A stretch of 39,186 nt of DNA, from assembly GCA_030605835.1 (NCBI GenBank), contig JAUWHO010000019.1, positions 1-39,186 of the forward strand. The letters run 5' to 3'. Each line of letters starts with the position of its first letter. Position 1 is the stretch's first letter. Positions 35,018 through 38,994 of this stretch are shown here, piece by piece. Under the pieces are notes generated by a model. It was not told the DNA's origin, searched no databases, and was given only the letters and a program-made list of their open reading frames with translations. Made by a program: the position numbers and the translations under genes. Origin of the DNA: Candidatus Zixiibacteriota bacterium (GTDB lineage Bacteria > Zixibacteria > MSB-5A5 > DG-27).

Positions 35018-35365
35018 CTACCTCCTCCTGATCGCCCTGACCAGATCGCTGTGCTCCTTGACCTTGGCAACCAGCATTTCGTGGGCGGTCGAGTCTGCGA
35101 TGATCAGATCCAGCATCTTACTTTCGAGCTCCTTGTCCTCGATAAAGTGCCGCATCATCTTCTCGGTCATATCTACCCTCTCGAAAGCGCGGTCGACCAT
35201 GGAGGTGATCATCTCCGTATCGGCGGCGACGCGGTCGAGAATGCTCTGACGCAACACCGGGTCTTTGTAAATCTGCTCTAACGCCGCCTGTTTATCACAG
35301 GAGACCAGAAGCGGAAGTACCCCCACGAGAAATACAACCATAAGAAAAAGAGACACCCTTTTCAA
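35018..35365 (-). CDS. Small helical lipoprotein of unknown function
   Basis: This 115-residue protein has a clear lipobox LVSC (Cys23) after a signal MKRVSLFLMVVFLVGVLPL. The mature part of about 90 residues is predicted helical, with heptad-like hydrophobics: LEQIYKDPVLRQSILDRVAAD, MITSMVDRAFERVDM, MMRHFIEDKELESKMLDLI. No domain is recognised. Several bacterial lipoproteins of this size act as scaffolds or enzyme-activating partners, but that is not shown here. A promoter candidate lies at 35462-35490. A short 3' remnant of a homologous gene lies downstream at 34905-34934. Confidence 0.8.
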   Translation of the reverse strand: MKRVSLFLMVVFLVGVLPLLVSCDKQAALEQIYKDPVLRQSILDRVAADTEMITSMVDRAFERVDMTEKMMRHFIEDKELESKMLDLIIADSTAHEMLVAKVKEHSDLVRAIRRR

Positions 35366-35510: not shown

Positions 35511-35543
35511 AAATAAAAAGGGTGTCCCTACAAAGGAACACCC
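35511..35543 (-). terminator. Intrinsic terminator of the exported-protein unit
   Basis: On the minus strand GGGTGTTCC, loop TTTGTA, then GGGACACCC make a 9-bp stem with one U-G pair. It is followed by TTTTTATTTC. It comes 22 nt after the stop of the K/E-rich protein gene, the last gene of the unit 38212-35566. Confidence 0.85.
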
Positions 35544-35565
35544 GGTCAAGTCAGACCAGCTGCTA

Positions 35566-36021
35566 CTATGGGCCAGATTTATCCTTCTCCTTGGTGATCT
35601 TCTCTTCCTTGGTCTCATCTTCCTTGGTCTTCTCCTCCTCAGTCTTCTTCTCCTTGAGACGATCATCTATGCCGTCGCCGTTTTTGTCCCGAAAATAGTC
35701 GTACGCCTCCCTGGTTCTGATCTTCTTCTCCTTCTGAAAAGATCTCTCCTTATCCTTGCTGGGAAGTTTCTTCCAGCTCTCCTTGGCCTTGTCTTTCCTG
35801 ACCTCAGGCAGCCTCTTGTGCTTCTCTGCGGATTCTTTTTTCTTATCGGGACTTGGAGCCCTTTTAACTTTTTCCGTCCGGGGCGTCAGCTTTTTCTTCT
35901 CCACCTGCTCGGTTTTCTTGGATTTCTTGGGCGGAGTGGCATAAGAAACCGGCGAGAGCGCAAGCCAGGTGAAACAGGCCAGGATCGATATTGCTGAAAG
36001 CAGTGTTATTTTTCTAGACAT
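35566..36021 (-). CDS. Secreted K/E-rich protein with Ca-binding-like turn
   Basis: This 151-residue protein has a signal peptide (MSRKITLLSAISILACFTWLA, cleavage near YATPP). The rest is highly charged and lacks hydrophobic core residues, with long Lys/Glu/Arg stretches; it is probably disordered. It contains DKNGDGIDDR near residue 113-122, a type 3-thrombospondin-like Asp loop that can bind calcium. I do not recognise a family. The start is preceded by a good GGAGGGAGG ribosome-binding site. It follows the DUF4384-like gene by 12 nt. Confidence 0.7.
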   Translation of the reverse strand: MSRKITLLSAISILACFTWLALSPVSYATPPKKSKKTEQVEKKKLTPRTEKVKRAPSPDKKKESAEKHKRLPEVRKDKAKESWKKLPSKDKERSFQKEKKIRTREAYDYFRDKNGDGIDDRLKEKKTEEEKTKEDETKEEKITKEKDKSGP

Positions 36022-36033
36022 GTCCTCCCTCCT

Positions 36034-37359
36034 TCATCTTCGTCGAGCAACCTTGGTGCGTGGACTCTCTTGTCGAGATGAGGTTCCCTTTTCCACGCGA
36101 ACGCTTTGTTTCTTGATGGTGGAAGTCGACCTCTCCTTGCCATTTTCACTTCTGGAAGAACTTCGACTCTTCCCACTCAAAGATTTAGCTTCTTTTACTT
36201 CCTTTTTCTTCTCAGTTCTGTATGTTCGCCCCTTCGAGGAAGTTACCGTCTTCTTCTTCTCGGCTCCGCCGGAGATAGACTCACTCTTGGCAGATGCTCG
36301 CTCTTTGGACTTCACAGACTTCGACTTAATATACCTGCCTTCGCTGCTTTTCGCAAGTGTGGTCTTCGCTGGTGGGGTATACGTCGATTTTGAGCCAGTC
36401 CGGTCACGTCTGGTGAACTTACCCTCCGAGACTGAAGTCTCCGGATTCGCCCACGAGGGTCGATCTTTGTATTTCTTTCCACCCCAATCGTAGTCTCGGA
36501 AGTAATCGCCCTTGTATCTGCGCCGCTCGAATTTGCTGGTGTATCCAACCTTCACCCTCACCGGCCGATACCTCTCCACATAGACATATCTCTGCCAGCA
36601 GGGATAGCCATTGTAATAGACGATGATTATGTGGGGACCGATGAAAATGTTGGGAATGCACATCGGGGCATAACCCCAGAAGACACCGTCAATAAAGATC
36701 TCCCCACCGTACCAAGAGCAGTCCACCCAGACCGTTCCCACCGGCCAGTAGCGGTAATAGGCCCGCGGACGATAGTAGTGATGATAGACATTCTCGATCT
36801 CGAAAACACACCAGTCGGAGACGAAATACCGATCCTCGAAAACCTTAAAATTAGCCTTGTCTATGAGGTCAAACCTTTCCTCCTCCAGGTAGGCACACCA
36901 GGAGGGATCATACTCCGCCTCGCTCCGATACGGCAGCCACCGGGGAGGGGAGATTGGATGTGGAGAGGCGACTGCATAAAGCAGCTCCTCCCCCCGGGGC
37001 CCGCAGATCCTAAACCTATAGTCACGCTCGGGATCCGGCACCCGATAGGTCACCTCCCCTCTGACAAAGCAGTCCTCGTAAGGGTCGTGCGGATAGACAA
37101 GGTGGAGATAACCCTCGGTGTCGATCTCATACAGGAGGACATGACAGTCCATGTTGGTGCGGAAATAGACGACCACATCCTCGCCCAAGTAGAACGTTCC
37201 CCCTCTTCCCTTGTTAGTCCAGACCTCGATCTCCAGCTCGGGTCCCGGATGAAGGGGAGTCACACTGAAGCCGTATTCCTCTGGAGTCTGAGAACTCGCA
37301 GCTTTCGGGAATAGGCTCCAGGTCAGGAGAATCATTACAATCACGACATATCTTTTCAC
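36034..37359 (-). CDS. Exported DUF4384/PEGA-like protein with S/K/R-rich tail
   Basis: This is 441 residues when started at GTG with GAGG 8 nt upstream; a longer reading frame exists but would begin inside the preceding gene. The signal peptide is VKRYVVIVMILLTWSLF ... ASSQ. The DUF4384-like domain (about 30-120) includes GGTFYLGEDVVVYFRTNMDC, YEIDTEGYLHLVYP. An aromatic-rich central part (YHHYYRPRAYYRYWPVG) is followed by a PEGA-like IFIDGVFWGYAP. The last 120 residues are Ser/Lys/Arg-rich, very basic and probably disordered. Several Cys are present in the central part (for example CSWYGG, CIPN). The function is unknown. The basic tail may bind nucleic acid, mineral or acidic glycans. Confidence 0.75.
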   Translation of the reverse strand: MKRYVVIVMILLTWSLFPKAASSQTPEEYGFSVTPLHPGPELEIEVWTNKGRGGTFYLGEDVVVYFRTNMDCHVLLYEIDTEGYLHLVYPHDPYEDCFVRGEVTYRVPDPERDYRFRICGPRGEELLYAVASPHPISPPRWLPYRSEAEYDPSWCAYLEEERFDLIDKANFKVFEDRYFVSDWCVFEIENVYHHYYRPRAYYRYWPVGTVWVDCSWYGGEIFIDGVFWGYAPMCIPNIFIGPHIIIVYYNGYPCWQRYVYVERYRPVRVKVGYTSKFERRRYKGDYFRDYDWGGKKYKDRPSWANPETSVSEGKFTRRDRTGSKSTYTPPAKTTLAKSSEGRYIKSKSVKSKERASAKSESISGGAEKKKTVTSSKGRTYRTEKKKEVKEAKSLSGKSRSSSRSENGKERSTSTIKKQSVRVEKGTSSRQESPRTKVARRR

Positions 37360-37381
37360 TTTAATCACCTCACTTCTAACT

Positions 37382-38212
37382 TCAATAAAGAGGCACCTCT
37401 TCCGTCGGAGGCAGACTGAGCTCCCGATTGCCGGGATCGGTCTGATAGGCCCAATCGAAAACCATCCGATGCAGTGAAGCACTCACAAGGGTCAAACGTA
37501 CTTTCGCGTAATGATCATCTTCTGTAAGAATCACGTAAGTGTGATACGGGATAGCTTCCGCCCTCCCCCACTGAGACCAGCCACCCGCGGGAGCGTAACC
37601 GATTTCGTCTAAGGATTCGGTGTAACCCATATCCTGCAGATAGGTGAAGTCTCTGGCAACAGATATAAACAGGTTGCCGTTGTCATAATCGAGATAGAAA
37701 TCGGCTTCGGTATTATTATAGCTGTCGAACTGCACCACCGCTTGAGTGGAGAGGTTGAACCCACAGCTATCGGGTTTGGTGTCGAAATCACAGAGGGTCA
37801 CATCATACCCCTCCGGTCTGGGAGTGTCGAAAACATCCTCGTAGGAAAGGTCGGATTCGTTCCCGCTCTCATCGAAGGAGGCCACCGCATAATAGTACGT
37901 TTTCCCGTTGAAGAGACCTGTATCGGTGTAGTAATCTTGATACATACCGTAAAGTGTAACAATGAGATAGTAAGGTCCCGCCAGAGCGGAATCGCCGCGG
38001 TAGACATTGTATCCATCGCAATCCTCCTCGACGACCGGACACCAGTAGACGATGATTTCCCCGTCGCCGGTGACAGAATAAACCCCGGAGGGGACTGCCG
38101 GTGGAGTATCGTCTACGTAGTAGACCTCCGTCACTCTCCGGTCGCAGGAACAAAGAGAGAGCATGAAGAGACTCACCGTCAGAGCAGCTGTTCTAAGCGT
38201 TGTCCTGGCCAT
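37382..38212 (-). CDS. Exported FN3-domain lipoprotein
   Basis: This 276-residue protein has a signal ending LCSC (Cys23). A fibronectin type III domain (about 33-130) contains DTPPAVPSGVYSVTGDGEIIVYWCPVVEEDCDGYNVYRG and KTYYYAVASFDESGNESDLS. A C-terminal region with several Cys and aromatic residues follows (LCDFDTKPDSCGFNLSTQAVVQFDSY). The second half is unrecognised. It is the first gene of a three-gene unit, 22 nt upstream of the DUF4384-like gene. It has a sigma-54 promoter match 27 nt upstream of its start. The lipoprotein probably anchors the two secreted partners at the cell surface. Confidence 0.8.
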   Translation of the reverse strand: MARTTLRTAALTVSLFMLSLCSCDRRVTEVYYVDDTPPAVPSGVYSVTGDGEIIVYWCPVVEEDCDGYNVYRGDSALAGPYYLIVTLYGMYQDYYTDTGLFNGKTYYYAVASFDESGNESDLSYEDVFDTPRPEGYDVTLCDFDTKPDSCGFNLSTQAVVQFDSYNNTEADFYLDYDNGNLFISVARDFTYLQDMGYTESLDEIGYAPAGGWSQWGRAEAIPYHTYVILTEDDHYAKVRLTLVSASLHRMVFDWAYQTDPGNRELSLPPTEEVPLY

Positions 38213-38238
38213 TCATTCACACCTCCGTTCCACGTTAG

Positions 38239-38255
38239 AGCAATTAATGTGCCAA
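38239..38255 (-). promoter_or_regulatory. Sigma-54 (-24/-12) promoter of the exported-protein unit
   Basis: The minus strand reads TTGGCACATTAATTGCT, which agrees with the RpoN consensus YTGGCAC-N5-TTGCW. The GG and GC are separated by exactly 10 nt. With C at -12, transcription begins near 38228. The 16-nt leader holds GGAGG (38222-38226) 9 nt before the ATG at 38212. It needs an enhancer-binding protein and RpoN, neither of which is in the window. Confidence 0.75.
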
Positions 38256-38343
38256 AAGAGGTCAATATCTCCCGGTTGTAACGCCTTGCTGTGCAGGCAA
38301 TTACCGTTGCCGTTGAAACGGCCTCTCAAGCGCAGCCTTCTCC

Positions 38344-38380
38344 GCACAAATCCTGTTCAAGGAAGCTCCTTTTTTTGTGC
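38344..38380. other. Stem-loop with T-run of unknown role
   Basis: GCACAAA (38344-38350) pairs with TTTGTGC (38374-38380). Within it AAGGA-AGC-TCCTT is followed by a T-run, which could act as a weak terminator on the plus strand, but no plus-strand gene precedes it. The rest of the 404-bp gap 38213-38616 contains two promoters and no gene. Confidence 0.35.
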
Positions 38381-38434
38381 AACCGTTACAAGACCGAGGT
38401 TCCCGCGGAGTGCGGGGAGGAGGGGCCAAAGAAC

Positions 38435-38463: not shown

Positions 38464-38616
38464 TAGGGGTAAGATCTGAGGGCCTTGTGGAATCAGGCTC
38501 TGGTGAGGCATTTGGGTTGCCTGCAAGATGTAGCTTAGAGCCTCTTCCGGGGAGTTTTCGAGAGGCTTCAGTTTGGGGAAAATGAATCCGTAAGAAACGA
38601 AGGGAGGAGGAAAGCG

Positions 38617-38994
38617 ATGAAGACAATTGCTACCGACAAGGCTCCTGCAGCGATCGGGCCTTACAGTCAGGCGGTGAAGGTTGGGAACTTCATCCACACC
38701 TCCGGGCAAATACCGATAGACCCCCGAACCAACCAGATCGTCTCCGGCGGAATCAGGCAGCAGACCGGACAGGTGCTGGAGAATTTGAGACTGATTCTCA
38801 AGGCCGGGGGCGCCGGCTTAGAGAACGTGGTCAAAACCACCGTATTTCTCAAGGACATGGCGGATTTCGCCTCCTTCAACGAGATCTACAGCAGGTTTTT
38901 CACCAGATCCCTGCCCGCCAGATCGACGGTTGAGGTTGCGGCTCTGCCCAAGGGAGCTCTAATAGAGATCGAGGCCATCGCCGTTCTTGAATGA
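38617..38994 (+). CDS. ridA: RidA/YjgF-family 2-iminobutanoate/2-iminopropanoate deaminase
   Basis: This 125-residue protein has the typical RidA length and sequence: APAAIGPYSQAV near the N-terminus, FIHTSGQIPIDP, QTGQVLENLRLILKAGGAGLENVVKTTVFLKDM, and the C-terminal signature PARSTVEVAALPKGALIEIEAIAV. The Arg of PARSTVEV binds the carboxylate of imine intermediates. It removes reactive imines from PLP enzymes such as serine dehydratase. The start has GGAGGAGGAAAGCG upstream. The next gene begins 42 nt later and may be co-transcribed. Confidence 0.97.
   Translation: MKTIATDKAPAAIGPYSQAVKVGNFIHTSGQIPIDPRTNQIVSGGIRQQTGQVLENLRLILKAGGAGLENVVKTTVFLKDMADFASFNEIYSRFFTRSLPARSTVEVAALPKGALIEIEAIAVLE

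Follow-up and report, generated by a model that had tools for sequence, protein, structure and literature searches.

Conservation, Predicted Sigma-54 Control and Proposed Cell-Surface Role of a Three-Gene Operon in Zixibacteria

Introduction

A gene that is near-universal and single-copy in a phylum with hardly any cultured members usually leads nowhere when its role is obscure. Three such genes for exported proteins lie close together in a 39,186-nucleotide stretch of DNA from a Candidatus Zixiibacteriota bacterium (contig JAUWHO010000019.1 of the assembly GCA_030605835.1; hereafter, the window). A previous sequence-only reading of this stretch proposed a single transcription unit under sigma-54 control, answering to a specific signal. 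The locus thus raises two questions: by which circuit are these genes switched on, and what do their products form at the cell surface?

Organization of the Operon

The three genes (hereafter, the trio) form a compact group on the minus strand with intergenic spacings of 22 and 12 bp (Table 1). These gaps, together with the 10-pair stem at 35543-35520, bear out the proposal of one unit closed by a good terminator. For the second gene, the GTG at 37359 was selected as the start by the Shine-Dalgarno sequence GAGGTGA and by the start positions in the relatives. RNA elements and tRNA genes were searched for and none were found. Past the terminator, a gene for a 115-aa lipoprotein (window 35018-35365, minus strand) has its own promoter-like site and was found in the same genus only; it is outside the trio unit.

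Table 1. Features of the trio operon, in coordinates of the window
Feature	Position	Strand	Remarks
FN3 lipoprotein gene	37382..38212	-	276 aa; signal peptide, lipobox Cys23, FN3 and family-specific C-terminal beta domain
DUF4384-PEGA gene, exported product with basic S/K/R tail	36034..37359	-	Pfam; 38/39 relatives, single copy each
Gene for K-rich exported protein	35566..36021	-	One DKNGDGIDDR (Ca-type) loop; comparable loop in 32/35 candidate third genes
Sigma-54 promoter, -24/-12	38240..38254	-	TGGCACATTAATTGC; 10/10, conserved
Predicted enhancer site (UAS) of the NtrC-type activator	38342..38360	-	TTGAACAGGATTTGTGCGG; palindrome GMAC-N7-GTGC
Possible second half-site	38375..38382	-	TTGCACAA, at -128; several relatives show a second site ~20-30 bp away
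Intrinsic terminator of the trio unit	35520..35543	-	10-pair stem, then TTTTTATTT

Sequence and Structure of the Proteins

No Pfam match was found for the lipoprotein of the window. The profile of its family matches solved FN3 domains (3mpc, Fn3-like, 4.6e-10), and the AlphaFold2 model (pLDDT 93.5, pTM 0.84) matches FN3 structures. The second beta domain of this model carries the conserved motifs DTPRP and QDxG; neither the PDB profile search nor the structure search yielded a confident relative for it. The lipobox Cys23, located behind a hydrophobic stretch, is invariant in 27 sequences, and the residue at -2 in the window protein is an unusual Cys.

The second protein contains a DUF4384 domain (PF14326, 60.9 bits against a gathering threshold of 27, 1.3e-16) and a PEGA domain (PF08308, 23.8 against 20.8 bits, 4.1e-5). 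Its final 140 residues have a pI of 10.9 and a net charge of +26, and the pI of this tail exceeds 9.5 in 37 of 38 loci. The model of its core is moderate (pLDDT 77), and the fold search with this model gave one match at E <= 0.001, with a poor TM-score, which carries little information on the fold. The third protein contains 24% K and 13% E, has a pI of 9.8, and includes the sequence DKNGDGIDD.

Across the phylum, the sequences support three exported proteins including one lipoprotein, as the sequence-only reading had described. The FN3 lipoprotein, the DUF4384/PEGA protein with a basic tail and the Ca-loop all stand; for the third product, "K-rich, basic" suits the family better than the original "K/E-rich".

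Distribution of the Trio

The FN3 lipoprotein family was found in 103 of 111 Zixibacteria genomes by a profile search of the phylum, counting family-level matches of at least 163 bits among those listed. The DUF4384-PEGA protein is present once per genome in 38 of 39 genomes, including all 34 near-complete ones. Genes for these two proteins adjoin in 35 of 37 relatives, the two exceptions having the DUF4384 gene at a contig end. Candidates for the third gene were identified at 35 of 38 loci, and 32 of them encode a D-x-N-x-DG-x-x-D loop. The order of the trio is stable within the phylum, and the flanking genes vary between families.

Genes hrcA-grpE-dnaK are located behind the trio in 13 loci: L094, L095, L099, L100, L102, L104, L111, L120, L122, L127, L146, L152, and L158. 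Co-transcription with the trio was considered and set aside, as most of these loci have a CIRCE-like element in front of hrcA, and the arrangement is probably a shared gene order only. Since hrcA starts 140-300 bp past the third gene and, in 9 of the 13 loci, is preceded by a CIRCE-like element of its own, it is probably a separate unit.

Beyond the phylum, one genome per GTDB species was scanned, with bin labels used as deposited. The lipoprotein family was found in WOR-3, Hydrothermota, Ignavibacteria, Eisenbacteria, Krumholzibacteria, Latescibacteria, and Poribacteria. Its partners there include DUF4783 and a kinase in Ignavibacteria and FecR/DUF6600 in Hydrothermota. Operons of WOR-3 and of Cloacimonadota-labelled genomes gain additional proteins whose cores are extremely rich in Tyr/Trp and whose tails are of the S/K/R type (L110:1981-4915; L105:6713-7783), and the third gene of L110 encodes many DxDGDGxxD repeats.

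Sigma-54 Promoter

The promoter element TGGCACATTAATTGC has the -24 GG and -12 GC at the correct spacing and scores 10/10 against the consensus. It is the sole match in the window, where 0.03 matches would be expected from dinucleotide shuffles; the near-perfect RpoN site that was initially noticed is therefore upheld. In the 2.68-Mb genome, the -24/-12 pattern has 14 matches, versus 4 for a reversed control pattern. A single rpoN gene was found in this genome (PF04552 at G000:C52, 3.3e-59).

A sigma-54 site is located near the start of the lipoprotein gene in 34 of 34 genomes with upstream sequence, own genome included, once over-long start calls are allowed for. At most two of 100 shuffles equal the site in 32 of these genomes. 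The sequence-only reading had named a search of related genomes for the trio and its RpoN site as a check, and absence of rpoN or of a conserved motif as grounds for refutation; the trio order and the site are kept, and rpoN is present. The site was also found at lipoprotein loci of WOR-3, Hydrothermota, Ignavibacteria, Krumholzibacteria, and Latescibacteria. The examined lipoprotein loci of Poribacteria have neither a sigma-54 site nor trio partners, so the lipoprotein can function outside sigma-54 control.

Elsewhere in the genome, a sigma-54 site is located upstream of an HSP20 gene (L072, G000:C51:174560), where the trio-type enhancer is absent.

Enhancer Site and Activator

A previously unnoticed palindrome, ryGCACAAWWWTTGTGCry (GCAC-N7-GTGC), was found 81-137 bp upstream in 34 of 34 genomes with upstream sequence. 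In the window it begins 106 bp upstream of the -24 element and scores 17.0; the score is at least 13.2 in 33 of the 34 genomes, and the 99th percentile of the null, 10.5, is optimistic because the matrix was trained on the sites of these same genomes. Loci of WOR-3, Cloacimonadota-labelled bins and Hydrothermota, all outside the training class, score 20.9-26.7 bits and thereby provide an independent check. The distances cluster at 81-93, 104-114, and 122-137 bp and look helically phased. The palindrome is missing at the loci of Ignavibacteria, Krumholzibacteria, Latescibacteria and some Eisenbacteria, where the sigma-54 site is retained.

A weaker sigma-54-like site, AGGCATTTGGGTTGC (window 38506-38520, plus strand), points towards RidA, a divergent gene at 38617-38994. 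The trio enhancer lies 164 bp upstream of this site and might act in both directions, on the trio and on RidA.

A full or partial gene for an NtrC-type response regulator was found at most 6 kb from the trio in 19 of 37 relatives, directly upstream in 11, and is accompanied by a Cache-PAS sensor kinase in some of them. Where the regulator adjoins the trio, the palindrome lies between the two or within the end of the regulator gene. The genome analyzed here encodes eight true sigma-54 activators. One of them, a 452-aa REC-AAA-HTH protein unlinked to the trio (G000:C31:114103-115461), is the clear best match to the trio-adjacent regulators (50-59% identity). In a maximum-likelihood tree it clusters with these regulators, and the seven other activators of the genome separate at 95/99. 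The recognition helix LGIHRNTLRxKIKEY, or a near variant, is common to the clade. NtrC has a similar recognition helix, and its site is likewise GCAC-N7-GTGC.

The neighborhood of this activator gene is xseB-dxs-nadK, as named by reading of the sequences, and no kinase gene adjoins the activator gene. The protein scores below the equivalog cut-offs for NtrC (438.6 versus 558.6 bits and 371.8 versus 620) and ZraR (426.6 versus 760 bits), as well as below the curated cut-off for AtoC, and is therefore not assigned to any of these types. In Eisenbacteria, Krumholzibacteria, and Latescibacteria, a different activator of ~1,030 aa, read from its sequence as TPR-GAF-AAA-HTH, is encoded upstream of the lipoprotein; in Ignavibacteria, a large HAMP histidine kinase is encoded downstream.

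Palindrome, synteny and tree together identify a predicted upstream enhancer and its cognate activator, the enhancer-binding protein that the sequence-only reading had left to be found. The joint conservation of the promoter, its enhancer site and the cognate activator strongly supports a sigma-54 unit that answers a specific signal. As far as sequence data can settle it, this regulatory finding is established, from the genes, promoter and enhancer site to their conservation and the orthology of the activator.

Second Target and Size of the Regulon

A second promoter with sigma-54 and enhancer sites was found at G000:C37:6513 (locus L067:139-1445). It precedes two genes, one for an outer-membrane protein that resembles a barrel and one for a lipoprotein whose core is Tyr/Trp-rich and whose tail is of the K/R/E type. 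The barrel gene is present in 36 of 39 genomes; promoter plus enhancer were found in only 11 of the 25 loci examined, and in none of the reversed controls. In several relatives (L192, L193, L194, L196, L200), the post-barrel lipoprotein has a CxxCH motif near the Tyr/Trp-rich region, e.g., ENCTDCHYDYH, a possible c-type haem site.

A large regulon was also considered. A stricter bipartite pattern, applied to eight relatives and the own genome, yielded, after enhancer scoring, only trio promoters, although this pattern misses degenerate enhancers, as the barrel operon shows. The regulon of the trio looks small.

Proposed Function and Alternative Explanations

We propose, with a probability of roughly 60%, that the trio operon is dedicated to a cell-surface response under sigma-54 control. 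The phosphorylated NtrC-type regulator, in this genome the G000:C31 orthologue, would bind the GCAC-N7-GTGC site at 38342-38360 and loop to the sigma-54 polymerase at 38240-38254. This would open transcription of the trio, and the transcript would stop at 35520. The exported products would be an outer-membrane FN3 lipoprotein, a DUF4384-PEGA protein that ends in a long basic tail, and a small, basic third protein carrying one Ca-type loop. Together with the products of the barrel operon, they may build or reinforce an outer-membrane assembly, the basic tails retaining a polyanion such as LPS or an extracellular polymer. The regulatory part of this mechanism, in which phosphorylation and binding are predicted steps, is highly probable; the surface-assembly part stands at about even odds. 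Weighing against the mechanism are the unlinked position of the activator in this genome and the lack of a kinase gene beside it, the presence of promoter plus enhancer at only 11 of 25 barrel loci, and the Poribacteria lipoprotein with neither sigma-54 site nor partners. We infer such an assembly from a shared pattern, i.e., an anchored lipoprotein, a beta/aromatic core with a basic tail, and Ca-type loops. A surface-anchored scaffold that, together with charged disordered partners, would serve in adhesion or bind minerals or polyanions, as suggested by the sequence-only reading, is plausible; the second target operon is consistent with it, as are the Ca-type loop and the conservation of the basic tails, and its location, assembly and ligand are predictions.

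The same control layout of an NtrC-family regulator, sometimes a Cache-PAS kinase, sigma-54 and small exported proteins is also that of a ZraPSR-like envelope stress response. The trio would then supply periplasmic buffers or chaperones upon envelope damage and form no lasting surface structure. The trio precedes hrcA-grpE-dnaK in 13 loci, and a sigma-54 site precedes the HSP20 gene of the own genome, both of which would fit. However, hrcA is probably set apart by its spacing and, in 9 of the 13 loci, its own CIRCE-like element, ZraP, Spy and CpxP were not matched in Pfam or NCBIfam, and the lipoprotein, the PEGA domain and the long basic tails appear structural, so that a stress response of this type is unlikely. 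Capture of haem or metal, with the C-terminal domain of the lipoprotein as a distant HmuY-like binding domain, is more doubtful still. PF14064 gives weak matches to the C-terminal half in 20 of 66 family members (best 4e-4), two histidines are conserved (GHTY, DxHYAK), and CxxCH occurs in second-target lipoproteins of some relatives. All PF14064 matches with a displayed score nevertheless fall short of the 27 bits required by Pfam, HmuY chains are absent from the PDB profile search and from the top 50 structure matches, and the trio operon contains no TonB receptor. Haem binding was thus not adopted and remains a lead.

It is very improbable that the genes share only a promoter, with the lipoprotein as the sole functional target and the other two genes as passengers. 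Loci outside Zixibacteria do retain the sigma-54 site of the lipoprotein with different downstream partners, but the trio order persists in the phylum despite changing flanks, and the same property pattern (aromatic/PEGA core, charged tail, Ca loop) reappears in other phyla.

The preferred reading of the trio as a cell-surface response operon can be extended, tentatively and at somewhat less than even odds. In this extension, the trio and barrel operons would specify a new surface assembly, near-universal in Zixibacteria and ancestral to much of the Fibrobacteres-Chlorobi-Bacteroidetes superphylum, under a sigma-54 two-component switch almost dedicated to it. Activators would have been swapped, as for the TPR-GAF-AAA type of Eisenbacteria, Krumholzibacteria, and Latescibacteria, with sigma-54 control kept.

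Comparison with Known Systems

The ZraPSR (HydHG) system of enterobacteria resembles the trio circuit in its use of sigma-54, an NtrC-family REC-AAA-HTH regulator and an exported target. It differs in that the trio has no ZraP match, the target of the trio circuit is an operon for a lipoprotein and a PEGA protein, and the enhancer is GCAC-N7-GTGC. The activator shares with NtrC the REC-AAA-HTH_8 layout and a similar recognition helix, and NtrC enhancers have the same geometry as the trio enhancer; the targets here are exported proteins rather than nitrogen genes. The DUF4384 literature found concerns, by title and abstract, other subjects, mostly orthocaspases or Deinococcus, and neither a DUF4384-PEGA protein nor a sigma-54 operon; no description of the trio operon was found in the literature search. 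The control circuit, i.e., promoter, enhancer and activator, can be read from sequence, and the role of the trio is therefore testable in culturable relatives with a sigma-54-linked lipoprotein (e.g., Melioribacter). A general link of sigma-54 with lipoproteins, LPS, and exopolysaccharide was described previously (Francke et al., 2011; PMC3162934); in the parts of that survey considered here the association is general, and the trio operon, its activator and its enhancer are not among what is described. The trio is an undescribed case of sigma-54 controlling the cell exterior, and it extends such control to a conserved case found throughout Zixibacteria.
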